From: Spartobacteria bacterium
Lineage (GTDB): Bacteria; Verrucomicrobiota; Verrucomicrobiia; Chthoniobacterales; UBA10450
Length of the DNA stretch: 64,000 nucleotides
Assembly (NCBI GenBank): GCA_003134785.1
Contig: PLCN01000022.1
Span: 1-64,000 of the forward strand
Reading direction: 5' to 3'
How positions within the stretch are numbered: the stretch's first letter is position 1; the number at the start of each line of letters is the position of its first letter. Position numbers and translations under genes: made by a program. A model generated the notes under the pieces. That model searched no databases and was not told the origin of the DNA. It saw only the letters and a list, made by a program, of their open reading frames with translations. Of this stretch, positions 32,538-47,461 are shown in pieces.

Positions 32538-32606
32538 AGATCTCGATCAATCGCGATCATGACACCGGGCTTGAGCCTGACCGTGGGCCAAGTATCCTCT
32601 CCAGTC

Positions 32607-33338
32607 ATGCACCGCGACCATCACAGTTGGTATTCACACCGTCTCAGCCGCGACATGGGCGTCAACGTTTACGGACATTACGGCATGCCCATTCTCGCCT
32701 TCCCCACCAGCATGGGCGACGAGCATGAGCAGGAAGGCCAGGGGATGGTCCGCACACTCGGCCCTTACCTCGAGCAAGGGCGGATCCGATTCTTCTCCAT
32801 CAACGGAGTCCAGAGCGATTCGTTCAGCAACAAAGGAGCGCACCCCTTCCATCGGAGCTGGCTCCAGGCGCAATACGACGACTACGTGGCGAGCGAAGTC
32901 TTCCCCTTCATCGACTCCCAGTGCCAGACGCCCGGCATTCCGATCACCACTTACGGCGCCTCGCTCGGTGCCTACCACGCCGCCAACACGCTCTTCAAGC
33001 ATCCCGACCGCGTGAAGCGGTGCTACGCGCTCTCCGGCATTTACGACATGCGGGACTCAATGGACGGGATGTACGACGACAACTTCTACTTCAATAACCC
33101 GGTGGACTACATGGCCAACCAGAACGACCCCTGGTTTCTCCATCAGTTAGCGAGCTGCGACATCCACCTCGCGACCGGCTGTGGCCCGTGGGAAAACAGC
33201 GGGCCGACCTACCAAATGTCCGCCGTGCTCGCGAGCCGGGGGATTGCTCATCACCTGGACGACTGGGGCCCGAAGGGCGGACACGAATGGCCCTACTGGC
33301 ACCACCAGATGTGGGAGTACGTTGGCGCGCATTTCTAA
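32607..33338 (+). CDS. esterase-like alpha/beta hydrolase
   Basis: A 243-residue protein from MHRDHHSWYSHRLSRDMGV (the frame is open to 32559). It has the nucleophile elbow TTYGASLGAYHA and a C-terminal WGPKGGHEWPYW with a likely catalytic His, matching the esterase D / PF00756 group that cleaves esters such as S-formylglutathione or siderophore esters. No signal peptide. A damaged copy of the segment encoding FLHQLASCDIHLATGCGP lies at 34048-34110, and another at 38432-38475. Confidence 0.8.
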   Translation: MHRDHHSWYSHRLSRDMGVNVYGHYGMPILAFPTSMGDEHEQEGQGMVRTLGPYLEQGRIRFFSINGVQSDSFSNKGAHPFHRSWLQAQYDDYVASEVFPFIDSQCQTPGIPITTYGASLGAYHAANTLFKHPDRVKRCYALSGIYDMRDSMDGMYDDNFYFNNPVDYMANQNDPWFLHQLASCDIHLATGCGPWENSGPTYQMSAVLASRGIAHHLDDWGPKGGHEWPYWHHQMWEYVGAHF

Positions 33339-33385
33339 CGAGCGGCCGAGTCGTCGGCGCGCATCACCTTTGGAACTCTTGCGGC

Positions 33386-33403
33386 CATACTTTGCAAAGT
33401 ATG
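33386..33403. promoter_or_regulatory. palindrome CATACTTTGCAAAGTATG
   Basis: A perfect 18-bp palindrome in the gap between the convergent esterase and ArsR genes, followed by GACCAAT. The core ACTTTGCAAAGT recurs at 33989, 38379 and 41189; see the ArsR entry. Possible operator, or the end of a repeat unit. Confidence 0.55.
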
Positions 33404-33412
33404 ACCAATAAT

Positions 33413-33997
33413 TTAACGGCGTGCTGAATGCGCTAAGACACGACCGAATGGATGCCAGTGGATCGTGGCCACGTATAACGCCCCCTCATCCTTCACAAAG
33501 CCTCTTGCCTCCAGTTTCGCGAGATGCCGGGAGAGCGCTCGCGCCGGCGTATTGGTTGCCGCTTGGAGTTTAGCAAACGAATCCCCTCCATTTTTCAGGG
33601 CGCGAAACACCTCGATTCGTCGCGGATGCGTGAAGCCCGTGGCCAGTTTGAAAATCGCTTCGATCGGCCGCGCTCTCCGCCGGAAGGCCAGGCGAAGCGC
33701 TTTGACAATTTCCTCGGCAGTACCTTCACCCGTCCCCGGGGACGGCCGGTATTCCACGCGGCGGCCAACGCGTCGGCAAGTCAGCAATCCGCGCGCTTCC
33801 AAAGCGCGCAAGTATTGACTGGCAGCCGGCATCGACAAGCTCATGCGCTCGGCGACAGCGGATACGGTCTGGTTTGGCTGCCGGATCAAGAGAGCAAGAG
33901 TTCGCAGGCGTTTGCGGTTAGCCAGGACACGGCAGGTGCGCCAAAGCGTCGGCTGACTAGAAGGCGACGTGGCTGAAGTCATGTCTACACTTTGCAA
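33413..33997 (-). CDS. double-HTH ArsR-like transcriptional regulator
   Basis: A 194-residue protein with two winged-helix-like halves. Residues 15-85 are RTCRVLANRKRLRTLALLI...SAVAERMSLSMPAASQYLRALEARGLLTCRRVGRRVEY; residues 115-190 are TGFTHPRRIEVFRALKNGG...RALSRHLAKLEARGFVKDE. ArsR-type regulators sense metals or small molecules; no clear metal Cys pair is visible. ACTTTGCAAAGT is present on both sides of the gene, at its promoter (33989-34000) and after its 3' end, which makes it a likely operator of this regulator. Confidence 0.78.
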   Translation of the reverse strand: MQSVDMTSATSPSSQPTLWRTCRVLANRKRLRTLALLIRQPNQTVSAVAERMSLSMPAASQYLRALEARGLLTCRRVGRRVEYRPSPGTGEGTAEEIVKALRLAFRRRARPIEAIFKLATGFTHPRRIEVFRALKNGGDSFAKLQAATNTPARALSRHLAKLEARGFVKDEGALYVATIHWHPFGRVLAHSARR

Positions 33998-34014
33998 AGT
34001 ATGACCAATTGGTC
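33988..34014. promoter_or_regulatory. ACTTTGCAAAGT operator-like palindrome with GACCAATTGGTC
   Basis: Directly upstream of the ArsR start: CACTTTGCAAAGT, then a second palindrome GACCAATTGGTC. The first palindrome is flanked by the gene start, as an autoregulatory operator would be. Confidence 0.6.
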
Positions 34015-34233
34015 AACGCTGCGGTTTGAGGATTCAAGGCGCTGAATCATGGTTTCTCCACGAGTTGGCGAGCTGCGACATCCACGGCGCGACCGGCTGT
34101 GGCCCCTGACAAATTAGATTGGCGTCCATTTGGCGTCCGCTCGCGGTTTGGGCGTTTCTCAGCTCGGATCAGCGCCGAGCAGCAATGACGCGATTCACAG
34201 ACTGACCCCTCTCTCCGCCTCTGCGCTTTCCGG

Positions 34234-34270
34234 TTTGAAAGCCCGGCCTCGCCTTTCGGCTGCGTTACGG
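34234..34270. repeat. 37-bp dispersed repeat
   Basis: It matches 56404-56440 with one mismatch, beginning TTTGAAAGCCCGGCCTCGCC. No coding sense in either place. Confidence 0.8.
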
Positions 34271-34342
34271 CCGGTATCCGGTATCCGGTTTGAAAGCCTG
34301 GCCGTCGCTTCGCGTCCGTTGCAGCCGCAATTCTTCGACTCT

Positions 34343-34377
34343 GCGCTTTCCGGTCTCCGGTATCCGGTTTCCGCAAT
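34343..34377. repeat. 7-bp periodic repeat (TTTCCGG type)
   Basis: Series CTTTCCG, GTCTCCG, GTATCCG, GTTTCCG, then CAATTC; close relative of 25601-25641. Confidence 0.7.
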
Positions 34378-34380
34378 TCT

Positions 34381-34893
34381 TCAACGGGCCTTCTTGGCGG
34401 GTGCGCGCGTCTTGGCGGCGGGTTTGGCTTTGCCTTTTCCCTTGCCCATGGCGTCACGCATGGCCTGATAGCCTGCGGTGTAGTCCTCGACCGGGAGCCG
34501 GGCCACGGTGCTCTCAACCACATCCAGCGCGAGCTCCGGCAACGTCTTGAAACGGAGACAGCCCTGGCCCATGTCCAGCTTCTTGCCGCTCTTTCCGTAT
34601 TGCGCGGTGAACCACTCCCGCAACGCTTGCTGCCCGTAGAAACATATCATGTGCAACGCCATGTACGATTTCTGTGACGCCACGCTGATCAGTGTCAGGG
34701 GTTCCTTTGGGTTGCCGCCATAGCCGGCGGGGTACGTGGACAGCGGAACGAACCAGCTGATCATGCCGAACTGGATGCCTTCCTTGTATCCCGGTGGCAG
34801 GGCCCGGTTGATTCCCCGGCGAACTTCGTTCAACGCGTCACGGCGATCCGCGGGGAGCGCGGCAAGATACTCAGTCACGGTGGATGCTGGCAT
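34381..34893 (-). CDS. DUF1801 family protein
   Basis: A 170-residue protein of the DUF1801/YdhG type (iron-chaperone-like, function not settled). It starts MPASTVTEYLAALPADRR; the family motif region is GYKEGIQFGMISWFVPLSTYP and SQKSYMALHMICFYG. The tail from about 150 is Lys/Ala-rich (GKGKAKPAAKTRAPAKKAR), as in a nucleic-acid-associated protein. Its 5' end and upstream flank are repeated in truncated form at 37611, 38483, 40434 and 41227. Confidence 0.82.
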   Translation of the reverse strand: MPASTVTEYLAALPADRRDALNEVRRGINRALPPGYKEGIQFGMISWFVPLSTYPAGYGGNPKEPLTLISVASQKSYMALHMICFYGQQALREWFTAQYGKSGKKLDMGQGCLRFKTLPELALDVVESTVARLPVEDYTAGYQAMRDAMGKGKGKAKPAAKTRAPAKKAR

Positions 34894-34995
34894 GGCGCAA
34901 GTCTACCATGAGGGCTTTTGCCGGGGCAACCGCAACGTCCGGATACACGCGGACGCGCGAAAGCGCGCATATCAAGGACACGGCGCGGCCGTTCG
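34808..34995. repeat. DUF1801 5' repeat unit, parent copy
   Basis: The sequence from codon 1 region of the DUF1801 gene through its upstream flank (to GGCCGTTCG at 34995) is the fullest copy of a unit found in shortened form at 37611-37725, 38483-38638, 40434-40485 and 41227-41360. Confidence 0.75.
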
Positions 34996-35045
34996 CCAGC
35001 CAAATGTCAAAATGTTTAGACGCGCCCCCATGCGACCACTTCGAA

Positions 35046-37520
35046 TCAGCCCGCCGGTTGTAGAGCAATTGACGGAGGAGCGAGCGAGGCCAAAATCTTC
35101 TGAAAACGCGGGTCGTCCCGAAGCGAATCCCACTGCGGGTAGAGCTTTAACTCGCCGTAAGTGATGCCGGCGGGAATCTGAGCGGCGATGGCAAGCTGTT
35201 CGATAGCCAGGTCCTTCTCACCGACCCATGCGTAGATCATCGCGAGATTGGTGATGTAACAGGCGCCATCTACCGAATCTTTCGTTACAGGCACCAACTC
35301 GCAGGCGCGGCGGCCTTCGCGAATGGCCTCCTCCTTGCGTCCCAGACCAGCATCGATAAGCCCAAGCCGGCTCCAGGCGGGAGCATAGTCGGGTTGATCG
35401 CGAAGGTTTTTTTCTTCGATCAGGCGGGCAACAGCGAATGCTTCTCGCGCTCTGCTTTCCTCGCCGAAAATGTGCGCAGCAAGGCCCACAAACCAGTCGC
35501 GCGCCCATAGCGAGTTGTTGTAAGTATCGCGTAGACCTTCCGGACGAATCGCCTCCAACGCCCGTGTTACACCCCTCAGGCTACGCGCCGCGAGAGAGCA
35601 ATTGAACAGGCCGTTTGCGACATCGGTCGCAGCCTTCGGATCTTCGCTCAGGATCGACGATAGCTCAGCGTGCCATCGGTCCAGATTAGCGCTCTCTAAA
35701 AATGAGATCTGAGCAAGCTGGGTCCGCGCGAATTGGTCATGCGGTTTGACCGATAAAGCGCGTTGGAACATTGCGGCCGCTTCGGAAAAATGACGCATTA
35801 CCTGCTGGGTAAACGCTGCTTCGACCAGGTTGCGGAAATCGCGCGGGTCCAGCTCGATTGCTTGCTCCGCGTTTCGAAGCGACTCCATCCAGCGGCCCTG
35901 CCGGCGATCGATTGCCGCCGTGTAAATGTAGACGAGCTCGTTGTTAGGCAATGTCACGCGGGCCAGGTCCAGCTCAGCGCGGGCGCGATCGTAATCGCGC
36001 GAAGCCTTGTAGGCATAGTCGGCCTTCATGAGATGCACTTCGCCTGCATCGGGATGAAGTTTGGCGGCACGCTCAACGGTTGCCCGGGCCAGCTCCAGTC
36101 GCGCGGCAGTATGATCGAAGCCCTGCCAATAAAGATCGATATGCACGGAGAACAGAAGCGAATAGGCACGAAGAAAGCGCGGATCGCGCGCGAGCGCTTC
36201 TTCGATTAACGAAACCGCCTGCAGCAGACTCTCCTTGGCATCGGGATTCGACCCCAGTTCCGTTAGCTGAAACGCTTGCCTGAAAAGTTTGTCGGCAACG
36301 AGATCAGTAGTATCCGCCTGAGCGATGGCAGCTTTTTCGCGATCTGACATTTGAAGCCGTAGTTGATCAGCGATTGCCTTTGCGATTTCGGTTTGAATCG
36401 CGAATACATCGGCGAGCTCACGGTCGTAACTCTGCGCCCAGAGATGACCGTCACTGCGCGCGTCGATAAGCTGGGCGTTAACGCGAATGCGATCGCCGCT
36501 TCGTTGCACACTTCCCTCCAGCACATTTGCGACGCGGAGTTGCTGCGCGATGTCGCGCAGGTTGCGGCGCGGCATTGCTTTGTATTGCATCACACTGGTC
36601 CGACTGATGACTCTTAAGTCGGCGACTTTTGCGAGATTCGTGAGGATCTCATCCTGGATCCCTTCCGCAAAGAACGCCGTTTCCTGGTTTGCGCTAAGGC
36701 TCTCAAACGGCAACACGGCGATGCTCTTGGCGGGCACGTGGGCCGGCAGCGGCGCGCCGCTCGCCATCATGGGGGCGGCCGGTTCAGGCAGCTTTTGATC
36801 CGAGGAATTTCTGAACGCCAGCGCGATGACGACTGCCACCAGGCCTGCCGCGGCAAAGAAGATTCCGCGTCTGTAAACACCGCGCGTCCGATCAGCGCCG
36901 CCCCTTTTCATTTTGTCCGGCACCTGCCGGTTTCCGACTTCGGGCGTGTAGAAATTGACGATGGAAAGCACGTTTCCGTGCTTTATCTCACATTCTCCGA
37001 GGTCGTGTAGAGCCGGTTGCCAATGCCGGTAAAGCGCCAGGTCTTCGGCCACGCGTTTCGAAAGCAGGATGTGACCGCCATCGCCGCAGTCCATCACCCG
37101 CTGCGCGATGTTGATCCCGGCGCCAGCGACATTCGAGCGGTCGTTCACGTCCGTCGTCGCGCTAATTGGTCCGCTGTGAATGCCGATGCGAACGGCGAGC
37201 GTCGGCTCATCCCGCAGCGCTTTACTGACTTCGACCGCGCAACGCACCGGCGCCTCGGGGCTACTGGTAAAGACCAGCGCCATGCCGTCGCCAGTCGGTA
37301 ATCGAGTGAGTTTGTCCGCCTTCTCCGCGATCCGAAACGCTTCCGTGTTTCGGATGATTCGATTCAGCTTCTGCAGGCTCTCGTGCTGCTCATTTATGAG
37401 CAAGCGTGAGTAACCGACGATGTCGACAAAAAGGACATGCCCAATCTCCAGCTTAAGATCGGCTTCGGCGCTTGCGACGAGCGGATCGTCCAGCACCACG
37501 AGTCCAATTGATGATGACAC
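35046..37520 (-). CDS. class III cyclase domain - TolB-like - TPR protein
   Basis: An 824-residue protein. Residues 25-180 are a class III adenylate/guanylate cyclase domain: HVLFVDIVGYSRL (metal Asp near 33), LPTGDGMALVF (metal Asp near 78), GAGINIAQRVM. A membrane helix is near 230 (IFFAAAGLVAVVIALAF). Residues 265-400 form the TolB-like domain common in this group (SIAVLPFESLSANQETAFFA, DEILTNLAKV, LWAQSYDRELADVFAIQTEIAKAI). The rest is TPR-like helices. The cyclase would make cAMP/cGMP on the cytoplasmic side, with the TPR part as a regulator or partner site. Known in many soil bacteria; the signal is unknown. Confidence 0.92.
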   Translation of the reverse strand: MSSSIGLVVLDDPLVASAEADLKLEIGHVLFVDIVGYSRLLINEQHESLQKLNRIIRNTEAFRIAEKADKLTRLPTGDGMALVFTSSPEAPVRCAVEVSKALRDEPTLAVRIGIHSGPISATTDVNDRSNVAGAGINIAQRVMDCGDGGHILLSKRVAEDLALYRHWQPALHDLGECEIKHGNVLSIVNFYTPEVGNRQVPDKMKRGGADRTRGVYRRGIFFAAAGLVAVVIALAFRNSSDQKLPEPAAPMMASGAPLPAHVPAKSIAVLPFESLSANQETAFFAEGIQDEILTNLAKVADLRVISRTSVMQYKAMPRRNLRDIAQQLRVANVLEGSVQRSGDRIRVNAQLIDARSDGHLWAQSYDRELADVFAIQTEIAKAIADQLRLQMSDREKAAIAQADTTDLVADKLFRQAFQLTELGSNPDAKESLLQAVSLIEEALARDPRFLRAYSLLFSVHIDLYWQGFDHTAARLELARATVERAAKLHPDAGEVHLMKADYAYKASRDYDRARAELDLARVTLPNNELVYIYTAAIDRRQGRWMESLRNAEQAIELDPRDFRNLVEAAFTQQVMRHFSEAAAMFQRALSVKPHDQFARTQLAQISFLESANLDRWHAELSSILSEDPKAATDVANGLFNCSLAARSLRGVTRALEAIRPEGLRDTYNNSLWARDWFVGLAAHIFGEESRAREAFAVARLIEEKNLRDQPDYAPAWSRLGLIDAGLGRKEEAIREGRRACELVPVTKDSVDGACYITNLAMIYAWVGEKDLAIEQLAIAAQIPAGITYGELKLYPQWDSLRDDPRFQKILASLAPPSIALQPAG

Positions 37521-37610
37521 CCATTCGGAGACAGCGGGTCCCGCGCCAAAAACCTCGATTTTCCGCGAAAAATGGCGTCTTCGATCGCGTTCTCTTTCAC
37601 ATAACGTCTA

Positions 37611-37725
37611 ACGCGTCACGGCGATCCGCGGAGAGCGCGGCAAGATACTCAGTCACGGTGGATGCTGGCATGGAGCAAGCCTACCACGAGGGCTTTTGCT
37701 GGGGCAACCGCGACGTCGGATACGC
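37611..37725. repeat. DUF1801 5' repeat unit, copy D
   Basis: About 115 bases resembling the DUF1801 gene start and flank, with several changes, between the cyclase and the ParE antitoxin genes. Confidence 0.75.
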
Positions 37726-37799
37726 CTGGGCCTCTTCCGTCGTTTTCCTTTCGACCGATATCTTGCGTAGAGATCGTTTCCTTCGTACTGTCGAACGTC

Positions 37800-38042
37800 A
37801 TGAGCACGGTCCACGAAATCCTCGACGCGATGGACAAACTGACGCGTGAGGAATTGCGAATCCTGAAACTGGGCGTCGATTCGCGACTCGCTGACGATGA
37901 CAACGACCTAGCATTGCTGGCTTCTTTGAAGGAAGCCATCGCTTATGCCGACAGTCACCCCGCCGAAGCCAAATCCATCGACGAAGTTCGCGCTCTCATC
38001 CCCCAATGGATTTCCGAGTCGAAATCACAGGCCCGGCCATAG
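37800..38042 (+). CDS. probable ParE-type antitoxin
   Basis: An 80-residue acidic protein from MSTVHEILDAMDKLTREELR at 37800 (an upstream frame to 37662 is disregarded because it is repeat-derived). It is mostly helical, with DEVRALIPQWISE at the end, like antitoxins that pair with ParE. It overlaps the toxin gene by 37 bases, so the pair is co-translated. Confidence 0.75.
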   Translation: MSTVHEILDAMDKLTREELRILKLGVDSRLADDDNDLALLASLKEAIAYADSHPAEAKSIDEVRALIPQWISESKSQARP

Positions 38043-38308
38043 CGGATCTCGCCGAGATAGTTTCTTACATCGCGCGAGACAATCCCGTGGGAGCGAAGGC
38101 GCTTGGCGAGAACCTACTTGATGCGGCTCTGAGTCTTGCGAAGACACCGTTTAAAGGTAGCCCCTATCCAAGGCTGGCCCGCGTTCGAAAGCTGACGCTG
38201 CCACCATTCAAGATTTTCTATCGAGTAAACGACCGGACGCGAGACGTAGAAATCCTTCGTTTCTGGCATTCGGCCCGACGTGAGCCGAAACTCGGACCTG
38301 AGGTCTGA
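38006..38308 (+). CDS. ParE/RelE family toxin
   Basis: A 100-residue protein of the ParE/RelE superfamily: MDFRVEITGPAIADLAEIVSYIARDNP and the C-terminal FKIFYRVNDRTRDVEILRFWHSARR. ParE members inhibit DNA gyrase, RelE members cut mRNA on ribosomes; the type cannot be told here, but the IFYRVN..T..VEILRFWH.AR motif is more ParE/RelE-like generic. The antitoxin gene precedes and overlaps it. Confidence 0.88.
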   Translation: MDFRVEITGPAIADLAEIVSYIARDNPVGAKALGENLLDAALSLAKTPFKGSPYPRLARVRKLTLPPFKIFYRVNDRTRDVEILRFWHSARREPKLGPEV

Positions 38309-38343
38309 TTTCGCAGTCACCTTGTTCGGCACGCCAAAGCCTC

Positions 38344-38480
38344 AGTTGACTGGAAGGCGTGGCGAGGAGTTATGTCCACACTTTGCAAAGTGTGACCATT
38401 GGTCAATGCAGTGATTTGAGGGGTTTGAGGTGCTGACTCGTGATTTCTCGATCTGTATCGGAGTTGGGACATCCATCTCG
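38344..38480. repeat. copy of the ArsR promoter/esterase fragment unit
   Basis: Part of a composite: ArsR 5' end and operator, then a degenerate esterase fragment (38432-38475), leading into DUF1801 repeat copy B at 38483. The order is the same as at 33955-34110. Confidence 0.65.
38377..38394. promoter_or_regulatory. palindrome CACACTTTGCAAAGTGTG
   Basis: Perfect palindrome in the stretch after the ParE gene. Flanking sequence, including GACCATTGGTCA and the preceding part, matches the ArsR promoter region at 33955-34014, so this is a copied regulatory region without the gene. Confidence 0.65.
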
Positions 38481-38482
38481 CG

Positions 38483-38638
38483 ACGGCGATCCGCGGGGAG
38501 CGCGGCAAGATACTCAGTCACGGTGGATGCTGGCATGAGGCAAGTCTACCATGAGGCCTCTTGCCGGGGCAACCGCCACGTCCCGATACACACGGGAGCG
38601 CGAATGCGCGCATATCAAGGACACGGCGCGGCCGTTCG
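38483..38638. repeat. DUF1801 5' repeat unit, copy B
   Basis: About 155 bases closely matching 34841-34995, including the minus-strand codons for MPASTVTEYLAALPADRR. Confidence 0.8.
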
Positions 38639-38720
38639 GTCGACGAGCACGAGGGGAATGAGGCAGAGCTTACTTTCGTCACCAATCGTCAATAGTAAGC
38701 CTCGACGAGTAGAAAACTTC

Positions 38721-40136
38721 CTACTCACCTGGTCGATAATAAGCTCTGACCTCTCCTGGTCTCCATAAGCTCTGCCCCATTTTGGGCTCCTCTTCGTTGT
38801 CCGATTCGTTACGATGCGACTGGCGGAGATCGCCACACAATTCATGGCGAGTCTCGTCCGCACACGGCAGCATCTGAATCCCCAGGATACACACATCATC
38901 TTCAAATGTTTCGCGAGCGGAGAACGACTTGGCATCCTCGAGCAAGAAATCGAAAAGCTCAGGTGTCGGGCGGTTGCCTTGTTCACGCACGTTGCTGAAT
39001 AGCCGATCGATTCCAAAGATCATTCCATCAGGACTCGTCGCTTCGCAGAGGCCATCAGTATAAAGGATAAAGAGATCGCTCGGCTGTAAGGTACGGGATG
39101 TCGTTGCGTAAGAGACGTTGTCGAACAAGCCCAGCGCCGGACGCTGCTCGCCCGGCCGCCAGGCGAGCGATCCCACTTCGCCGGTCAATTGGTCGCGGAA
39201 CAAAGGACACGGGTGCCCGGCATTCGCGTAACGAAGTTCTTCCTTCGCCAGGTCGGCAATGAGATAAAACGCGGTCGCAAAGATTGGCCACCGCGTGTGA
39301 CAAAGGACGGCACGCATTCCGCAATTCAACTCACTCAGGAACATACCGGGATCACCGGCCCATGGACGCGCCTCCTCGATCAGGCCGCGCAGGATTCCGG
39401 CGACAAGGCCCGCTCCTGCGCCGTGTCCCATCACGTCGCAGATAAAAATTCCTACGTTCGTATCGGAGACCTCGAGAACGTCAAAGAAGTCACCCCCGAG
39501 CTGCGTCGCGGGTTGCAGCCGGGAATGCACATGAAGAAGAGAGCTATTGGCAGCCGCGTGGCGCGGAAAGTCTACGTCACCAAGCGGCAGATAGGCCAGT
39601 TGAATGTCTCGCGCCAGCTCGAGCTCCGCCTTCATCGCTTCATTCTGAGTGCGCAATTGCCAGGCATAATCGGCCACTTGTCGCTGAAGCTGTTTGCGTT
39701 CGAGCGCATAGCGCACCGCCCGCATCAGAACCGTCACGCTCATCGAACCCTTTACGAAGTAATCTTGTGCTCCCGCGCGCACACTCTCCACGGCCAGTGC
39801 TTCATCAGCCAAGCCGCTGAGAATGATTATCGGCAGATTCGGCGCAACTCTTTGGATCTTCCAAAATGTCTCCAGACCGCGGCTATCTGGCAAATTCAGA
39901 TCGAGCAGGATCACGTCGATCTCGCGCGAACCCAGCAGGGGGATCGCCGCCTCGATTGTCGTCTCGCGCTCAATGACAAAGTCGGCCGTGTCCGCATCGT
40001 GGAAAGCCATTTCCAGCATGCCGGCTAGGATTGGGTCGTCTTCGACCAAAAGAATGTGGCTGGTGCAGAGGGGGACGCCGCCTGTCTTGCTGGGAAATGT
40101 GAGATCGTGAAGTGCAGTGGCAATAATGGGTTTCAT
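38721..40136 (-). CDS. response regulator with PP2C/SpoIIE-type phosphatase domain (RsbU-like)
   Basis: About 471 residues from MKPIIATALHDL (the frame is open to 40214). It starts with a receiver domain: HILLVEDDPILAG, phospho-acceptor Asp in VILLDLNLPDSRG, and the conserved Lys in YFVKGSM. The C-terminal half is a PP2C-family phosphatase: QPATQLGGDFFDVLEV, FICDVMGHGAGAG, TDGLCEATSPDG. These proteins relieve sigma factor inhibition by dephosphorylating an anti-anti-sigma factor. The last 20 or so residues (MGQSLWRPGEVRAYYRPGE) look like repeat-derived read-through, and the natural end may be earlier. Confidence 0.9.
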   Translation of the reverse strand: MKPIIATALHDLTFPSKTGGVPLCTSHILLVEDDPILAGMLEMAFHDADTADFVIERETTIEAAIPLLGSREIDVILLDLNLPDSRGLETFWKIQRVAPNLPIIILSGLADEALAVESVRAGAQDYFVKGSMSVTVLMRAVRYALERKQLQRQVADYAWQLRTQNEAMKAELELARDIQLAYLPLGDVDFPRHAAANSSLLHVHSRLQPATQLGGDFFDVLEVSDTNVGIFICDVMGHGAGAGLVAGILRGLIEEARPWAGDPGMFLSELNCGMRAVLCHTRWPIFATAFYLIADLAKEELRYANAGHPCPLFRDQLTGEVGSLAWRPGEQRPALGLFDNVSYATTSRTLQPSDLFILYTDGLCEATSPDGMIFGIDRLFSNVREQGNRPTPELFDFLLEDAKSFSARETFEDDVCILGIQMLPCADETRHELCGDLRQSHRNESDNEEEPKMGQSLWRPGEVRAYYRPGE

Positions 40137-40566
40137 TTTTGTGGTTTTAATACCGCGCTGAGAGGCGCGGTTGATGCCGTTTAACGGAACAAACGGACCC
40201 CCGTTTTGCAGCATCGCTTGTGCCGCCGGGGAAGTAGGCGGGATCTCCTGCGAAGGACTTACCTATTCTCTCGGCTGATTCCTAGCCCAGCACTTTAGCG
40301 CTGGGGCGATGCGCCCTCCTGAGGGAGTCCTTCACGGACGAAAGAATCCCTCCTTCCCGCCAAGGCTTATGGCTGCCTCACCCGCGACACACAGCAGCCG
40401 AAATCGCTGTCCTGACCGCCCTCCGCTGTTCGCACGGTGATGCTGGCATGGGGCAAGTCTACCATGAGGGCTTTTGCCGGGGCAGAGGGCTACATTCTAG
40501 GCTGAACCCTTTTTTGAGCCCCCTGCATCTTTACAGCATAGATCAATCGTCGGAGAATCGCTCACC
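40137..40566. other. intergenic stretch with a DUF1801 repeat fragment
   Basis: 430 bases before the small secreted protein. Only the repeat at 40434-40485 is recognised. Confidence 0.6.
40434..40485. repeat. DUF1801 5' repeat unit, copy E (short)
   Basis: About 50 bases from TGATGCTGGCATGGGGCAAG, matching 34882-34931 of the parent copy; the shortest of the copies. Confidence 0.8.
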
Positions 40567-40908
40567 ATGAAAATTCGAAACTGGTTCATCACTCTGTGTG
40601 TCGTCCTCACTCTTGGCGGGCTGAATTTCTCGGCCATGGCCGCCGATTTTGGCGATAGCAAAGACGTAAAACAGGTCCGCAAAGTCGTCGCAGCGAAGTT
40701 TGGCAAGGTTCTGCACGTCTCGGTCTCCCACGACTGGACTCTTTGCACCGCATACCAGGACGAGAGCGACATCTCCGTCGTGTTGCATCGCACCGCGGCC
40801 GGCTGGACGATCGCCGATCATGACGGCGGCGCGTTTGACGCCGAAACCCTGAAGAAACTCGGCGTCCCACCAGCAGACACCGCCCCGCTCCTCAAGGCTT
40901 ACCAGTAA
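40567..40908 (+). CDS. small secreted protein
   Basis: A 113-residue protein with a signal peptide (NWFITLCVVLTLGGLNFSAMA). The mature part has KQVRKVVAAKFGKVLHVSVSHDWTLCTAY and a C-terminal DAETLKKLGVPPADTAPLLKAYQ helix. No family is recognised. Single gene. Confidence 0.7.
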   Translation: MKIRNWFITLCVVLTLGGLNFSAMAADFGDSKDVKQVRKVVAAKFGKVLHVSVSHDWTLCTAYQDESDISVVLHRTAAGWTIADHDGGAFDAETLKKLGVPPADTAPLLKAYQ

Positions 40909-41186
40909 CGCGGGCCGGTCCCCCGTGTGCCCGCGAATTACTGCGAGTAGGGAACGTCATCGGTCACTGGTAGAGCGACATTGTTCTCGATGTGAGCGCC
41001 CGGAAGCGATCGATGCAGCTCCGAGCTCTACGAGTGTCCCACGAGCGGCCTGAAAACCGTTTTCTAACAAGCCAAAGCCGCCATCGTCAGCCAATTCGGC
41101 CGGAGCAGCGGCGAATACGCGATGGTGGCGGGGATTCGTTACTGAGGAATGACGCGATTCACAGACTGACCCCTCTCTCCGCTTCC

Positions 41187-41204
41187 CCACACTTTGCAAA
41201 GTAT
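41187..41204. promoter_or_regulatory. operator-like palindrome CACACTTTGCAAAGTATG
   Basis: Third copy of the ACTTTGCAAAGT core outside the ArsR gene, followed by GACCCATTGGGC. Confidence 0.55.
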
Positions 41205-41226
41205 GACCCATTGGGCAGCGCTGCGG

Positions 41227-41360
41227 TTGATTCCTCGGCGAACTTCGTTCAACGCGCCACGCCGATCCGCGGGGAGCGCGGCAAGATACTCAGTCACGGT
41301 GGATGCTGGCATGGGGCAAGTCTACCATGAGGGGTTTTGCCGGGGCAACTGCAACGTCCG
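41227..41360. repeat. DUF1801 5' repeat unit, copy C
   Basis: About 134 bases matching 34808-34943, including the minus-strand MPASTVTEYLAALPADRR start. Confidence 0.8.
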
Positions 41361-41376
41361 GGGGATTAGATTCTGT

Positions 41377-43209
41377 TCAACCCTTCTCGGGGCTGTCCCC
41401 TACCGGACCAAAAATTGAAAGTCGCCAAATTTCTGGCGGCAATGGAGAGCGAAACTTTAAACAGGCCAATATTATCACCGCGACGGGCAATCCGGTTGGA
41501 AAATTTGCCTTCTGAGATCTGCGACTTTGCTGAATGAACTCTTGAAGATGAGCAGCGATTGCTTCACCGTCGACTTGCGGCTTCTTATCGAATGTTTCGA
41601 TCGTTTGCGCTTCCCCTTCGTCCCTAAGGCTCTTAGTCAACACCTTATCACCCCAATCGCTTGGTGGAACCCAACCAATAAGGTCTAGGGGCTGGCAGTT
41701 ATTTAATTGCTCACCCTCGCCTGTCCTACCAAGGACTAGTTGTTGATAATATTTACCGATTACTTCGTTTCGTTTTATTGGCTCCAAAGCGAAAGAGAGT
41801 TCCAGAAGACACAACAACAGCAATGAACTCTGATCGCAAAACTCCGGAGGCCTCTCTCCCGTCGCAACATGTTCAAAAACGAGTTCGATTGAGTTTCCTC
41901 CTTCGATGAACGGCAAAGGAATCGCTCCGGCTCGACGCACAAATAGTTTGCTTTGTAAGCCATGGAGCCATTTTTCGATGTCATCCCGCCGGCCAATCTG
42001 CCATAGGGTTCGCCAAACGAGAAACAACTCCAAGTGGTGCAAGTCAATCAGAGGCCGTTGTGCTCCAGGATTAGCGTTGATTAACCCTACGAGCCAATTT
42101 GAGACCCTATGCTTGGCTTCCGCGCGCACTTTCTTTTCGGCTTCCGTATCGCGCGGCAAGATTTCAGCGAATGTTACCGCCAAGATTCCAAGCCGTCCCA
42201 TGTGCCAAAACGCGGTAAGTGCAGCGGCAATCGCGTCGAGATAATTGCCCGTGCGGGGAATTTCAAGACTGTGCTCGGTTGCCAGTTCGGCATTATGCGC
42301 CGTGTAGTACCTCTCCAATTCGGTGAGATAGAATCCCACCCACATTTGCAAAATTGCCTCTTTGACAGAGTTCTTGTCTGTAGTCTGATGAACCCGCCAC
42401 GCGGCCAGCATTGCCCATTCAGCGAGGTCTATCCATCCAGTCTCTGCGGTCGGATTAGAGCGACCGTACTCGCGCAGGATAAGCAAAGCCACGGGAATAA
42501 GACGAATTGTTCGTTCGTCCGTCTGCTTTTTCAGTAGATCCTCGAGAAAACGTCGCCAATTTGGCACCAATTGTTTGGACCATTCATCCGATCCATGTCG
42601 AAAATCCTCGAACTGGGAACAGATATAACTGAATAAGCTAAAGAATCTTTGCGGTAACAAAGAAGGTGTCAGCAACTGCTGCTTCACCTTGTCACTCAGC
42701 ACCGTCAGGTTCCACCGCTCGAATAAGAGTCCGACCTCGTTTCCGATTTTCGTCCCTAGACTCTTCGTCAGATTTTCGAAGAGTTGGATTCCGTTGCGGT
42801 CTTCGTCCTTGTTATAGACCAAGACAATCCTCACCTCGCGAACTTCTTTAAACTCGGAGGGGGTAAGATCCGGTGCCGCGGCTCGCCTCAAGTCAGAATC
42901 GAAGTCATTCTTCGTCCATGTTGCGTTTGAGAGCTCTTCGTCCTTTAAGACGAAAATGGTCAGTATCTTACCGTCTCGCGACAAAAAAGACGAATCGATT
43001 CCGAACTCGGCTTCCGTCTTTGTTTTTGAGATCTCGGTGGGGCCCGCTCGAAAGAATGGAAGGCGATATGGAATAAGATCGTCGGCTAGTGCCAGATTAT
43101 AAACAATCCAATCAAAACCGAATTTAGTCGTCGTCTTTTCGACGCGAGTTCGTTCCGCTAGGCTGCGGATGTAGTACGTTACAAACGATGTTGTAAGGTC
43201 TTCACTCAT
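41377..43209 (-). CDS. large protein of unknown function, third gene of a nucleotidyltransferase operon
   Basis: A 610-residue protein from MSEDLTTSFVTYYIRSL at 43209, which overlaps the upstream gene's stop in an ATGA arrangement. The N-terminal 130 residues contain a pattern EFGIDSSFLSRDGKILTIFV then LKDEEL, which resembles the D-(x)n-E/D-x-K layout of PD-(D/E)XK nucleases (an inference, not a certain match). The remainder (150-610) is mainly helical, with Trp- and Leu-rich segments (ETGWIDLAEWAMLAAWRVHQ). Lower GC than flanks. No known family. It could be the effector of the operon. Confidence 0.7.
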   Translation of the reverse strand: MSEDLTTSFVTYYIRSLAERTRVEKTTTKFGFDWIVYNLALADDLIPYRLPFFRAGPTEISKTKTEAEFGIDSSFLSRDGKILTIFVLKDEELSNATWTKNDFDSDLRRAAAPDLTPSEFKEVREVRIVLVYNKDEDRNGIQLFENLTKSLGTKIGNEVGLLFERWNLTVLSDKVKQQLLTPSLLPQRFFSLFSYICSQFEDFRHGSDEWSKQLVPNWRRFLEDLLKKQTDERTIRLIPVALLILREYGRSNPTAETGWIDLAEWAMLAAWRVHQTTDKNSVKEAILQMWVGFYLTELERYYTAHNAELATEHSLEIPRTGNYLDAIAAALTAFWHMGRLGILAVTFAEILPRDTEAEKKVRAEAKHRVSNWLVGLINANPGAQRPLIDLHHLELFLVWRTLWQIGRRDDIEKWLHGLQSKLFVRRAGAIPLPFIEGGNSIELVFEHVATGERPPEFCDQSSLLLLCLLELSFALEPIKRNEVIGKYYQQLVLGRTGEGEQLNNCQPLDLIGWVPPSDWGDKVLTKSLRDEGEAQTIETFDKKPQVDGEAIAAHLQEFIQQSRRSQKANFPTGLPVAVIILACLKFRSPLPPEIWRLSIFGPVGDSPEKG

Positions 43210-45284
43210 CTCGCGGTGCCTACTCCGGAAGCCGCCGACAGCTCCCGAATGCGGAGTGATGCGTGAAATCGTCTCAACTGCATTCCTTCTGGGTCGACGA
43301 ACTCCATTCTGGGGAACTCCATCGAAGTGGAGATTTCTTTGAGGTCCGAGCTCGCTCCCAAAACCCCGTCGTGAAATGTTCGCCACTGATGACCGTAAAG
43401 GAGGCGCACCTTCTTGAACAGTTGAGTAAAAATCGAGAGTTCTTCGGAGCCTTTCGACACCTGAGCGGCGAAACGTCGCGCATGGAGTTGCGCGGCCCGC
43501 GCGAAGCCCGCAACTTCGATTTGATTGATGCTTGATTTTCGGATTGTTCCTAGGGCTTCAAAATATTGTTCCGCTTCGGCAATTGCCTTCTGCAAGATTG
43601 GAAAGTCGGTGGCCCTGGCGGTAAATTCATCCTTACACGCGCCCGGGAAGTTCTTCAGCTGTAGCAGTAGTTCGTCGTAAAAATCCTCTTGAAGGTCTTG
43701 GTCCGCTCGCTCGACGAATGGAACCAAGAATATAAGAAATCGAGCGACCGCTTTTCCCTGCGTCGTGAATCGTTGCACTTCATAAAAGGCAAGCGCAGTT
43801 TGGCTTTGACTCGCGTTTTCAAACGGCTCGGATGGCAGCGTCGTGCCGACCTCGTCAAAAAGAAGCAAACCGATTCTGCGACATTCAGAATCGTCTGCTA
43901 ACATCAACTCGGCGATCGCGCCGCCCACGCCTTTGGTTTGCATCTCGGACAGCAACCATTCGAATTCGCGAGGTCCGCTCAGAACCTTCAGCAGATTGTC
44001 GGCATTTCGTCGGCTGAGCTCCGTTAGGAATCTACCAAAGAAAGCTAAATCCCATCCAAGCGCACTTACGAGAAAATGTTCAATGCGCTTCCAGATGCCT
44101 TTATGCTCTGCAAGAATGGGCTGAACCGACAGAATTAGCCTTCCGGCATCTTCACGCTTATCACCCGGCAGCTGCGCCGCGAAGTCCACGACGTTATATT
44201 TTGCTCCCGGCGCAATATCGCCAGAAACGTGTGACCGAAGCCAATTCCAGCCGAACTCAAGAGACGCCGACGGGATCGATGGACTCAGCAACGACCTGCA
44301 CACAATCCAAAACACTTGCTCTCGCTCTTCCGCAGTCCCCGTCCACATCCTTTCCGTCAAGTCTTGTATGTCGCTGGGGTCAATCTTGCCGCACCAGGCG
44401 CTCGTCAACCAAGAACGATGGTAAATTGCTCGTGCGCTGATCGCTGGCGCGCTGGAAATCTCAGCTTCGAGTGATCTGAATTTCTCCGCTGTCTCTGCAT
44501 CTAGATCAAAGCAGCGAATGGATCCAAGAATATACGCGGCTACTGAAATCTGCTCTTCGCCTGCAGCCGCGCGCAAAACCCTCAAGACCTCTAATGCGGT
44601 CTGAGGATGGGCTCTACAAAATGTCCCGAGGGCTTTCCAAAACCCACCGGAAGCCAAGTCATTTCCAAGTCTTTTTACTAATGACGGAAACCATTCGGCG
44701 CCAAACTCTGGCCTCAAATCTCTCTCACTCAATAAGACAGCTAGGCTATCGAGCATTTGAAAGAAGAAGGGATTCCCGATTCTCGGCAGTTCTCGAAGCA
44801 AACTTTCGGCCTCGGTCTTCGACAACGTTTCCATTGCGGTTGATACGAGCAGCCCCATCGCTCGATGTGAGGCATCGCTCCATCCCAAGCGGATATGCAA
44901 ATCCCCCAATCGCTCGTAAAACTGAAGAGTTGGCGTAACCCCTTCTGGAAATAAGGCTGAGAGCGCTACAGCGGCCCTTTTGCGATCAGCAAATATCTCT
45001 TCAATCTCAGCATTAAGCTTTTTCTCCTGGTCACTACCCGTCCCCACCTCTCGAACGCGTGGGGTCTTGTTCGCCGAATGCTCAACCGCCGTCATAAAGA
45101 CTGAATCAAGCGAAGTCACTGTTGCGACTTTGTTATTGCCATCATTCGCAGTTCGTTTTTTCTCAAGCCCGATGATCAAATCATCTCGCAGGCGTTCTAA
45201 AATCTTCAGCTTCTCGACGAACGGAAGCTGAGCGAGTTGCCGGCGAGTTGCGGTCTTGCTCATTCCTGTCTTTCCGATGTTCAT
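43206..45284 (-). CDS. large helical protein, second gene of a nucleotidyltransferase operon
   Basis: About 692 residues from MNIGKTGMSKTATRRQLAQ; the ATG shares a base with the stop of the upstream gene (TGATG). The first 40 residues, RRQLAQLPFVEKLKILERLR, have the same pattern as the small partner at 8881-9036 and similar antitoxin-like proteins. The rest is all helical, with HEAT/TPR-like features but no recognisable family, and no nuclease or ATPase motif. So the protein looks like a small-partner module fused to a large helical scaffold. It overlaps the downstream gene by 4 bases. Confidence 0.7.
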   Translation of the reverse strand: MNIGKTGMSKTATRRQLAQLPFVEKLKILERLRDDLIIGLEKKRTANDGNNKVATVTSLDSVFMTAVEHSANKTPRVREVGTGSDQEKKLNAEIEEIFADRKRAAVALSALFPEGVTPTLQFYERLGDLHIRLGWSDASHRAMGLLVSTAMETLSKTEAESLLRELPRIGNPFFFQMLDSLAVLLSERDLRPEFGAEWFPSLVKRLGNDLASGGFWKALGTFCRAHPQTALEVLRVLRAAAGEEQISVAAYILGSIRCFDLDAETAEKFRSLEAEISSAPAISARAIYHRSWLTSAWCGKIDPSDIQDLTERMWTGTAEEREQVFWIVCRSLLSPSIPSASLEFGWNWLRSHVSGDIAPGAKYNVVDFAAQLPGDKREDAGRLILSVQPILAEHKGIWKRIEHFLVSALGWDLAFFGRFLTELSRRNADNLLKVLSGPREFEWLLSEMQTKGVGGAIAELMLADDSECRRIGLLLFDEVGTTLPSEPFENASQSQTALAFYEVQRFTTQGKAVARFLIFLVPFVERADQDLQEDFYDELLLQLKNFPGACKDEFTARATDFPILQKAIAEAEQYFEALGTIRKSSINQIEVAGFARAAQLHARRFAAQVSKGSEELSIFTQLFKKVRLLYGHQWRTFHDGVLGASSDLKEISTSMEFPRMEFVDPEGMQLRRFHASLRIRELSAASGVGTAR

Positions 45285-45919
45285 CAGTCGTTTAGAAACT
45301 GGTTTTCGAAATCGCGCCATTTATCAATGAGCCCGTGGCGTTCAAGAATCCCTACTAGGCGTTCGCGATCCAATTTGCCCGAATCTGTAAAGTGAATGAT
45401 CCGTGCCTTGTCTTTGGGCCGACCTGTTTGCAGAGCGATCGCAACAAGATGCTCAGCAGTGAGTACGAAAGTCCTGACGTCATCGGCGACTTCGACCTCA
45501 TCCGCTTGAACGATGCCCTCTTCTACGAGGGGACTCGTAGGTGGCAAAAACTGCACAAGCCAATCCTCAACTTTTAGGGATTCACCTACAGCGCTATACC
45601 CGCGGCCAATCAGATAATCGTAAATAGGTTTTGGGGTGATAATCAAACCTTCCCCCTCAGCATGGATTGCCACGAAGATGTCTACATCCATCGTCGGCAT
45701 GGGTTCCAAATGAAATGTGGCGCCTACTGCCCCGCCGATCGCGTACCGCCCAATCACTCCGGCAGCCATCATTTCGTTAACAACCTTCAAAGTCTTAACA
45801 AACTTCGGTTGGGCTGTAGGTAACCTGTCAGCCTCCGCCTTTGGAGCTGCCTCTTTCAGATCCTCGGCGCGGATCTTCGTCGATCTCGACTTGCGTATCT
45901 CGCTGCGCTTTTTTGCCAT
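45284..45919 (-). CDS. nucleotidyltransferase-like protein, first gene of the three-gene operon
   Basis: A 211-residue protein with a basic 40-residue N-terminus (MAKKRSEIRKSRSTKI). The nucleotidyltransferase core is RYAIGGAVGATFHLEPMPTMDVDIFVAI with Gly-Gly and the D.D metal pair (about 58-86). Residues 150-200 have the helical tail shared with the 9033 protein (LVAIALQTGRPKDKARI). This is the same family as AbiEii-like toxins and MNT antitoxins. It leads a coupled operon with two large unknown proteins, which no described MNT system I know of has. Confidence 0.8.
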   Translation of the reverse strand: MAKKRSEIRKSRSTKIRAEDLKEAAPKAEADRLPTAQPKFVKTLKVVNEMMAAGVIGRYAIGGAVGATFHLEPMPTMDVDIFVAIHAEGEGLIITPKPIYDYLIGRGYSAVGESLKVEDWLVQFLPPTSPLVEEGIVQADEVEVADDVRTFVLTAEHLVAIALQTGRPKDKARIIHFTDSGKLDRERLVGILERHGLIDKWRDFENQFLND

Positions 45920-46235
45920 GTCGATGGCTGTTACAATACTCGATCTTTAACCGCGAACCCAATTAAGCGTTCGTGTAAACAGTTCGCAGCCGTGAATCTC
46001 GGAAGACCGAGGTCAGCGTAATTTCCATGTTCGATGATGTAGCACGAAAGACGTGCGCCGGACAGGCTACGTTTTCGTCGGCGATGGAGTCGGGCCGCAA
46101 AACAGCCTTTGAGGGCGCAGCGCCGAAATCTAATGTGGAACCAAAATGCTTGTTCATCTCGTCGACGGCAATTACGAGCTCTTCCGGCACTTCTACGGGT
46201 TGCGCTCGGGTCGGCACCGCAGTCTCTTGGCGAAG
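45920..46235. other. intergenic stretch with a 5' exonuclease gene fragment
   Basis: 316 bases with a hairpin-like GTAGCACGAAAGACGTGC near 46040-46060 and the exonuclease start copy at 46146-46206. A minus-strand frame at 45963-46217 is only the antisense of this copy. Confidence 0.65.
46146..46206 (+). pseudogene. copy of the 5' exonuclease gene start
   Basis: It encodes HLVDGNYELFRHFYGLRS, a near copy of HLVDGTYELFRHFYGLRR at the start of the exonuclease gene (47462). It is in frame with the transglycosylase gene, so an open frame runs from this fragment into it. Partial duplication is inferred. Confidence 0.8.
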
Positions 46236-47006
46236 ATGCCAAAGCCGAATGCGAACCTCGTAAAAGGCTCGGCCTCACGCGGTCCCAAGCGAAAAGGCGC
46301 TGCCTCACGCGGTCGGGGGCGCCGCTGGAAATGGATTTGGGTAACGCTCGTGGTGCTGCTCCTCGTCCCGGCGATGCAGGTGGCGGTGGTGCGATTCGTC
46401 AATCCGCCACGGACGCTGCCGATGTTGATCAATCAGATGTCCTCGAGCGCGCCAAAGTCTCCGCTCCGCTACCAGTGGATCGATCTGCCGCAGATTCCTG
46501 AGATGTTCCTCAAGCACGTTTGGATCTCGGAAGATCAGCGGTTCTTTCAGCACGATGGCTTTGACTGGACGGAGATGCACCTCGCGGTGAAAGAAGCGGA
46601 GCGGAAAAAGAAACCGGTTCGTGGTGCTTCCACGATCACAAACCAATGTGCCCGGTCGATTTTCCTTTGGCAGGGCCGCTCCTGGATCAGGAAAGGACTG
46701 GAATCGTACTACACGATCTGGATGGAGATGCTGTTGCCGAAGCGCCGCATTTTTGAGCTGTATGCGAACGTGATCGAGATGGGGCCCGGGATCTACGGGG
46801 TCGAAGCCGCCTCGCAGCATTATTTCGGCGTCAGCGCGCGCGGTCTTACGCGGGAACAGTCGGCCATGCTGGCGGCGGTCCTGCCGAATCCGAAAGGCTG
46901 GGATCCGACGAAGCCAGGTCCGATGTTACGATGGCGTCAGCAGCGCATTCTGCGACGCGAACAGAACGCGAACTTCCCCGAGAAGTTGCTTCGGGTTTCA
47001 AAATGA
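46236..47006 (+). CDS. mtgA: monofunctional peptidoglycan transglycosylase
   Basis: A 256-residue protein from MPKPNANL (46236), after a fragment fused upstream in frame. One membrane helix is near 31-50 (WIWVTLVVLLLVPAMQVAVV). The glycosyltransferase family 51 core has SEDQRFFQHDGFD (catalytic Glu), RGASTITNQ, and LYANVIEMGPGIYGVEAASQHYFG. It polymerises glycan strands at the inner membrane. The first 27 residues include two copies of the VKGSASRG-type repeat peptide (9-17 and 18-27), derived from the palindromic element at 46259-46312. These residues are in the cytoplasm and should not affect the active site. Confidence 0.88.
   Translation: MPKPNANLVKGSASRGPKRKGAASRGRGRRWKWIWVTLVVLLLVPAMQVAVVRFVNPPRTLPMLINQMSSSAPKSPLRYQWIDLPQIPEMFLKHVWISEDQRFFQHDGFDWTEMHLAVKEAERKKKPVRGASTITNQCARSIFLWQGRSWIRKGLESYYTIWMEMLLPKRRIFELYANVIEMGPGIYGVEAASQHYFGVSARGLTREQSAMLAAVLPNPKGWDPTKPGPMLRWRQQRILRREQNANFPEKLLRVSK
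46259..46282 (+). repeat. palindromic element copy 1, within mtgA
   Basis: Arms CGTAAAAGGC and GCCTCACGCGG. It codes VKGSASRG in frame at residues 9-17 of MtgA. Confidence 0.85.
46289..46312 (+). repeat. palindromic element copy 2, within mtgA
   Basis: A weaker copy, GCGAAAAGGC then GCCTCACGCGG, coding KGAASRG in the same reading phase. Confidence 0.7.
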
Positions 47007-47018
47007 CCCGTGTAAAAG

Positions 47019-47045
47019 CCGCGTAAAAGGCTTCGCCTCACGCGG
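47019..47045 (+). repeat. palindromic element copy 3, intergenic
   Basis: A 27-bp copy just after the MtgA stop with arms CCGCGTAAAAGGC and GCCTCACGCGG; preceded by a partial duplicate (CGTGTAAAAGCC). Confidence 0.85.
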
Positions 47046-47068
47046 CTGCCGCAGTAGAAAGAGAGCGG

Positions 47069-47386
47069 ATGTACTATGTGTACGTGTTGCGGTCGGAGAG
47101 CGACTCTGGTTTCTACATTGGCTTCTCCACCAACCTGCGCGCCCGACTGAGGCAGCATCAAAACGGCGAGAGCTTTGCTACGTCTCACCGCGGTCCATGG
47201 AAGCTTATTTATTATGAGGCGTACACGGAGCGCGAAGACGCCGAGGGCCGAGAGAAATTCCTGACGAGTGGGGCCGGGCGACGTTTCCTGCGCGCCCAAT
47301 TACGTTACTATCTCGAGAAATTCCCTGCCCGTGTAAAAGGCTTCGCCTCACGCGACTCCAGTCATGATGAAGCGAAGCCCCACTAA
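47069..47386 (+). CDS. GIY-YIG family endonuclease
   Basis: A 105-residue protein. YYVYVLRS (2-9) and FYIGFSTNLRARLRQH (15-30) are the GIY-YIG core, and Arg 24 is in place of the catalytic Arg. These small proteins are nuclease-like and often found in excision or mobile contexts; the function of stand-alone ones is uncertain. Residues 88-95 (RVKGFASR) come from the palindromic element at 47330-47354, so the C-terminal tail is repeat-derived. The stop is followed by another copy of the element. Confidence 0.85.
   Translation: MYYVYVLRSESDSGFYIGFSTNLRARLRQHQNGESFATSHRGPWKLIYYEAYTEREDAEGREKFLTSGAGRRFLRAQLRYYLEKFPARVKGFASRDSSHDEAKPH
47330..47354 (+). repeat. palindromic element copy 4, within GIY-YIG gene
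   Basis: CGTGTAAAAGGC then GCCTCACGCGA, coding RVKGFASR at the C-terminus, in the same phase as in MtgA and the exonuclease. Confidence 0.85.
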
Positions 47387-47423
47387 TCAACCGCGTCAGG
47401 CGAATCCTGTTGCGCCACTAAAA

Positions 47424-47450
47424 CCGCGTGAGGCAAAGCCTTTTACGCGG
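47424..47450 (-). repeat. palindromic element copy 5, inverted, intergenic
   Basis: Inverted orientation, arms CCGCGTGAGGC and GCCTTTTACGCGG, just before the exonuclease start. Another degenerate copy follows at 47458-47483 and includes the GTG start codon of the exonuclease. Confidence 0.8.
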
Positions 47451-47461
47451 ACTCCAACCAC

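Follow-up and report, generated by a model that had tools for sequence, protein, structure and literature searches.

How do partial copies of one composite segment, assembled from pieces of separate genes, come to lie between unrelated genes at a single locus? The question is raised by a 64 000-bp stretch of the genome of a Spartobacteria bacterium, from a soil lineage (Verrucomicrobiota, Chthoniobacterales, UBA10450; assembly GCA_003134785.1, contig PLCN01000022.1, positions 1–64 000; hereafter the window), in which the 5′ end of an ArsR-type regulator gene with its predicted operator, a piece of an esterase gene, and a DUF1801 gene with its upstream flank recur in one region. A first-pass annotation ascribed the pattern to recurrent copying of one segment with internal deletions, as from a non-autonomous element or repeated recombination. 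The window was compared with itself, with the rest of its genome, and with related genomes (G-numbers below). We conclude that the copies are probably scars left in a gene-turnover hotspot by a tandem array that decayed; most likely they descend from tandemly arranged units of ArsR 5′ end, operator, DUF1801 gene and flank that were trimmed by deletion.

A composite unit confined to one locus

Self-comparison of the window verified all five repeat places, with edges within about 45 bases of those first proposed (33930–35029 for the full unit, against 33955–34995). They comprise one full unit (U1) and four reduced copies (scars B to E; Table 1), which are 75% (operator half of B) to 96% (E) identical to the full unit and share one direct orientation. 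In a search of the whole 4.39-Mb genome, the copies gave E-values from 2e-62 to 4e-9, ruling out chance as the source of the matches. They occupy about 8 kb, exclusively at 33–41 kb of the contig (C20), and the matches elsewhere in the genome were short dispersed repeats of the unit filler only. Judged by the refuting conditions given in the first-pass annotation, the outcome is mixed: the copies have common borders and no counterparts outside the locus.

The ArsR portion of the unit covers the first ~20 codons of the regulator gene on the minus strand, the true start of which is probably the ATG at 33983. The double palindrome read from the sequence just before this start (ACTTTGCAAAGT followed by GACCAATTGGTC) is likely the operator; ACTTTGCAAAGT also adjoins an ArsR paralog of G005. 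Homologues of the regulator occur in G031 and G007, and the gene is disrupted in G004. The neighbouring esterase gene is the source of a 59-bp piece inside the unit, and about 100 bp of upstream flank accompany the DUF1801 gene. The proposed order of operator, esterase piece, DUF1801 start and flank holds for the full unit and for B, where the esterase piece has diverged; it fails for C, D and E, which have no esterase piece, and D and E are also missing the operator part. C carries an additional, out-of-order 41-bp piece (41145–41185, matching 34181–34221 at 95%) to the left of its operator, the rest of the scar spanning 41187–41361.

Two further repeats touch the unit. Its filler includes a family dispersed in this genome (CTTTCCGGTTTGAAAGCC..., 34233–34377), of which roughly 15–20 pieces are present here and more in relatives. 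The first palindrome of the two-winged-helix regulator also recurs past the 3′ end of that gene, within a second copy of ACTTTGCAAAGTATGACCAAT (33389–33409). G004 has this copy with a single change, and G007 has part of it.

The closest named relatives are Chthoniobacterales/Spartobacteria metagenome assemblies, and genomes of the same genus hold equivalent copies, most of them at the equivalent locus. Among 83 genomes of the family, unit pieces were found mainly in the same genus and mainly beside the esterase gene; the remaining matches are more distant DUF1801 genes (70–75%). This distribution bears on the non-autonomous element suggested at first, which would be MITE- (miniature inverted-repeat transposable element) or REPIN-like, would carry the operator and the DUF1801 start, and could have been mobilised, for example, by the RAYT ending at 35002–35029. 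Such an element would suit copies that are short and intergenic and a unit that ends in a RAYT-end remnant, as well as the RAYT ends found at three tRNA-Arg relics on another contig (C22, described below). The complete RAYT element of G007 codes for a Y1 transposase of 325 aa whose C-terminal domain is of the DnaA type (Y1_Tnp and Bac_DnaA_C). Yet the copies sit at a single locus, and the family searches likewise place the relatives' pieces largely at its equivalent. The RAYT end is present only in the full unit here and in B of G007, and is missing from all four scars of the window. The copies are all direct and vary in size, the left ends of their DUF1801 parts differ, and they showed no terminal inverted repeats, shared termini or target-site duplications, the last of which the first-pass annotation had proposed to look for. 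We regard an origin by such an element as very improbable.

Probable tandem origin and trimming

The derivation from a tandem array was read from junctions in relatives, expressed here in window coordinates. In G004, a second, reduced unit comes immediately after the full one: the upstream flank runs to 34989 (...GCGGC) and is joined to the ArsR frame from 33934 (AGGTGCGC...), with the 4-bp CGGC on both sides. The same flank–arsR junction (34989 joined to 33930–33934) is present in G005, and its left edge is also the starting point of window B and of a G002 scar. This tandem junction accounts for the odd left border of the copies inside the ArsR gene. Trimming is visible at equivalent positions: after the cyclase gene, the window keeps 34832–34946 (D), and G002 keeps 34670–34755 plus 34927–34941. 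The right-flank string TCGACGAGCACG is common to window B and the second G004 unit, which differ in their internal junctions; window B and G007 B have an identical internal junction. A common tandem junction and differing internal deletions at equivalent positions bear out recurrent copying with internal deletions. In C, a mid-unit piece precedes the operator piece, as would be expected of a scar spanning two consecutive units; this argument is weak, because the mid-unit piece has weak matches elsewhere in the genus.

We propose four steps. First, the arsR-like 5′ end, the operator, the DUF1801 gene and its upstream flank would have been duplicated head to tail over the 4-bp CGGC. Second, the middles of array members would have been deleted, differently in each lineage. 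Third, unrelated cargo, some of it anti-phage defence, would have come between or inside array members, often ~50 bp upstream of the DUF1801 start. Fourth, the leftover copies would have continued to recombine among themselves. Duplication and deletion were read from the sequences of several genomes, and the fourth step is supported by the uneven divergence described below. The third may have proceeded by homologous recombination at the repeated units or by illegitimate insertion into the promoter flank with its hairpin. Decay after tandem duplication at short repeats is a known process; the head-to-tail junction with 4-bp microhomology and the lost middles resemble it, whereas the copies here are parted by cargo.

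A head-to-tail junction, one common orientation and confinement to the locus were all found, the last with the exception of two short pieces in G003 that lie on a separate contig without placement. Besides these pieces, several points weigh against a tandem origin. At least some of the relatives are metagenome assemblies, from which their versions of the locus are taken, and in G002 and G003 the locus is split over contigs; junctions common to independent assemblies argue against assembly error, a protection that features of single genomes enjoy less. No intermediate with at least three intact tandem units was found, the maximum being one intact and one reduced unit (G004, G007). The descent of D and E from the array would follow from the DUF1801 part alone, as both are without the operator part. 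Finally, the preponderance of direct copies among local repeats of 40–500 bp (64:6 within 10 kb, vs 514:507 at distance), which in itself speaks for a tandem origin, includes several pairs from the same cluster and from ordinary gene duplications.

Probable exchange between copies

Divergence between copies within a genome is uneven. Between the window's U1 and B, 34 of 134 positions are changed in the operator half, against 10 of 156 in the half with DUF1801 (Fisher p 7e-6), and the pattern is the same in G007 (p 0.008). In orthologous comparisons (U1 with U1, B with B), divergence is even across the halves. A 10-bp flank deletion is common to U1 of G007 and G004 and occurs neither in the window's U1 nor in the second copies; the flank of the window's U1 most resembles the second copies in G004 and G007. 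The simplest reading of these sequence patterns is exchange between unit copies after their operator halves had diverged, which supports the repeated recombination suggested in the first-pass annotation. A mosaic built from pieces of different age may also have produced the unevenness.

A recurrent border and the entry of cargo

Several scars have their right ends beside a hairpin (GCGCGAAAGCGCGC; Table 1). Of 12 scored right ends, six fall within the 6 bp at 34941–34946 and the other six outside it (p 0.0007 under uniform placement, or 0.0045 with the orthologous D scar left out, both post hoc); the test was framed after the ends had been seen, and the position of some ends is certain only to within a few bases. 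In G005, aminotransferase cargo lies between unit positions 34941 and 34952, with a loss or gain of no more than about ten bases. Possible readings of the border are a weak attachment site, a fragile site, and a place where insertions spare the promoter.

If it were an attachment site, the locus would be a site-specific integration hotspot of the kind known from tRNA genes and the 5′ end of dusA. Small islands would have gone into it repeatedly through an integrase supplied in trans or lost since, and every insertion would have left part of the target behind. Both the clustered right ends and the clean G005 insertion fit this, as does the nature of the sole comparable cluster in the 1.26 Mb of the genome compared with itself. 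The contig gave no match to the tyrosine recombinase family PF00589 (serine recombinases were not searched), and it is on this search that the absence of an integrase at the DUF1801 locus rests. Cargo ends have no sequence in common, and no repeated core of the kind that attL and attR would form flanks the cargo. B extends beyond the supposed site, as do the second units of G004 and G007, E stops short of it, and a border just upstream of a promoter could merely be where insertions are tolerated. We consider site-specific integration unlikely.

The comparable cluster came from a self-comparison of 1.26 of the 4.39 Mb, in which one other group of at least four locus-specific scars with intervening cargo was found, on C22 (32.9–48.2 kb). 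Here (32900–48210; L128, L129), five tRNA-Arg(CCT) 5′ halves, most with upstream DNA, form direct repeats. Each ends within the anticodon loop or adjacent to it; cargo separates them, and the intact tRNA occupies the right end of the cluster. Integration at tRNA genes is a classical phenomenon. We read the cluster as an accretion-type integration hotspot, with no tyrosine integrase on its contig; it shows that such accretion takes place in this genome and does not prove the same route for the DUF1801 locus. Two candidate clusters on C4 (61–68 kb and 0–6 kb) were set aside by eye as REP-like (repetitive extragenic palindromic) repeats and Rhs-like gene pieces. RAYT ends mark both scar clusters of the genome (35002–35029 in the window; 39935–39962, 44634–44661 and 47983–48010 on C22), and positions 12–1051 of L147 are listed among the RAYT element sites.

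Cargo might also have entered without any integrase, if the duplicated regulatory gene end served as a shared homologous landing pad. Cargo, defence genes included, would then be captured, exchanged and lost through recombination between units, within and between cells, with a unit scar left at each cargo boundary. Such a cassette array, which would be one form of the third step of the tandem-array explanation, seems to us rather unlikely. Two more specific schemes were dropped. A tRNA-targeted island found no support, as neither the window nor the relatives' loci contain a tRNA. An integron-like array, suggested by the resemblance of GTCTAAC near D to an attC core, was rejected on account of the lack of a tyrosine recombinase on the contig, cargo that is too large and lies on both strands, and the single short word on which it relied.

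Cargo and the hypervariable region

The scars sit between cargo genes, the content of which differs from genome to genome (Table 1; start codons and cargo boundaries were derived from open reading frames). The unit array forms the left edge of a hypervariable region of 13–23 kb (about 19 kb in both the window and G005, 13 kb in G007 and 23 kb in G004), bounded on the left by the conserved esterase side with the unit and on the right by a block conserved in G007, G004 and G005 that begins at 54.1 kb. The parDE block of the window has an 88% counterpart in G007, where it lies on the other side, upstream of the esterase gene. Other cargo includes an aminotransferase and an LmuA-like 1362-aa protein in G005, a caspase in G006 and a DUF5069 protein in G002, and much of the cargo is unrelated to defence. 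Among the proteins of the relatives, PADLOC also matched DpdE and ZorD; these matches are helicases of the SNF2 type and were left out of the defence genes.

Table 1. Features of the unit, its scars and the intervening cargo (window coordinates)
Feature	Position	Strand	Remarks
Second copy of ACTTTGCAAAGTATGACCAAT	33389–33409		Past 3′ end of ArsR gene; exact 21-bp match to 33989–34009
Putative esterase gene	32559–33338	+	Pfam Esterase 1.7e-13; conserved left neighbour, at relatives' equivalent locus
ArsR/MarR-type regulator, two winged-helix domains	33413–33997	−	Pfam HTH_20, HTH_5
Full unit (U1)	33930–35029		ArsR 5′ end, operator, esterase piece, filler, DUF1801 gene, upstream flank, RAYT-end remnant
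Two adjacent perfect 12-bp palindromes	33989–34014		ACTTTGCAAAGT 33989–34000; GACCAATTGGTC 34003–34014; just upstream of ArsR start
Piece of esterase gene	34050–34108	+	Copy of 33132–33190, 90%
DUF1801 gene	34381–34893	−	Pfam DUF1801 7.5e-9
Recurrent right border of scars	34941–34946		About 50 bp upstream of DUF1801 start (CGTCCGG^ATAC), beside GCGCGAAAGCGCGC hairpin
Remnant of RAYT (Y1 transposase) element 3′ end	35002–35029	+	28 bp; complete elements with same ends in G007, G004
Adenylate cyclase-like/TPR protein (cargo)	35046–37520	−	G002: same gene, then orthologous scar
Scar D	37610–37723	+	34832–34946 (94%)
parDE-like pair (cargo)	37777–38322	+	ParE 38006–38308, 3.6e-16
Scar B	38332–38638	+	33939–34093 (75%) + 34840–34995 (94%)
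Response regulator–SpoIIE phosphatase (cargo)	38721–40214	−	
Scar E	40433–40484	+	34876–34928 (96%)
113-aa protein, signal-like N-terminus (cargo)	40567–40908	+	G002: operator scar directly after gene
Scar C	41145–41361	+	34181–34221 (95%), then 33987–34026 (93%), then 34796–34942 (94%)
Olokun-like defence pair (cargo)	41377–45320	−	PADLOC; OloB 41377–43386 (2.2e-25), OloA 43206–45320 (1.9e-30)

The position of the scars among these genes raises the possibility that they were kept by selection as regulatory DNA, either as DUF1801 promoters or as ArsR operators for cargo genes. D and E do direct the promoter region of DUF1801 towards their left-hand neighbours, the cyclase and SpoIIE genes, and ACTTTGCAAAGT is unbroken in B and C. 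Against this, the promoter part is missing from the G002 counterpart of D, neither B nor C faces a gene in the right direction, and D and E are without the operator; retention by selection appears most improbable.

An RNA element was also considered and rejected, the Rfam scan of the window having returned a TPP (thiamine pyrophosphate) riboswitch only (RF00059, 56205–56312, minus strand). Farther right, two adjacent 2-kb stretches (58200–60192 and 60637–62629) are 79% identical to each other and represent a gene duplication that is kept in relatives.

Comparison with known systems and implications

About half of gene-turnover hotspots are without recognisable mobile elements, and the route by which genes enter them is unsettled (Oliveira et al. 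2017, PMC5635113). The DUF1801 locus resembles those hotspots in having a variable region set between conserved genes, cargo that is rapidly replaced and no integrase nearby, and differs from them in the scars of a duplicated flanking unit between cargo genes inside the hotspot. Islands at the dusA 5′ end likewise combine diverse cargo with a single site close to where a protein-coding gene starts (Farrugia et al. 2015, PMC4482086). An integrase is a universal feature of the dusA islands (PMC4482086), whereas here no tyrosine recombinase was found on the contig and no attachment core was seen. Olokun in the window, the LmuA-like protein of G005 and the caspase of G006, all at the equivalent region, recall anti-phage defence islands and hotspots (for example PMC10121019); the locus is unlike them in that much of its cargo is not defence-related.

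Locus-specific direct-repeat scars between cargo genes would constitute a record of successive events in the growth of a hotspot, and a hotspot scarred in this way predicts junctions and circles formed between unit copies. Should the scars be mere neutral debris, the locus would still show that fragment mosaics resembling mobile elements can arise without a mobile element.

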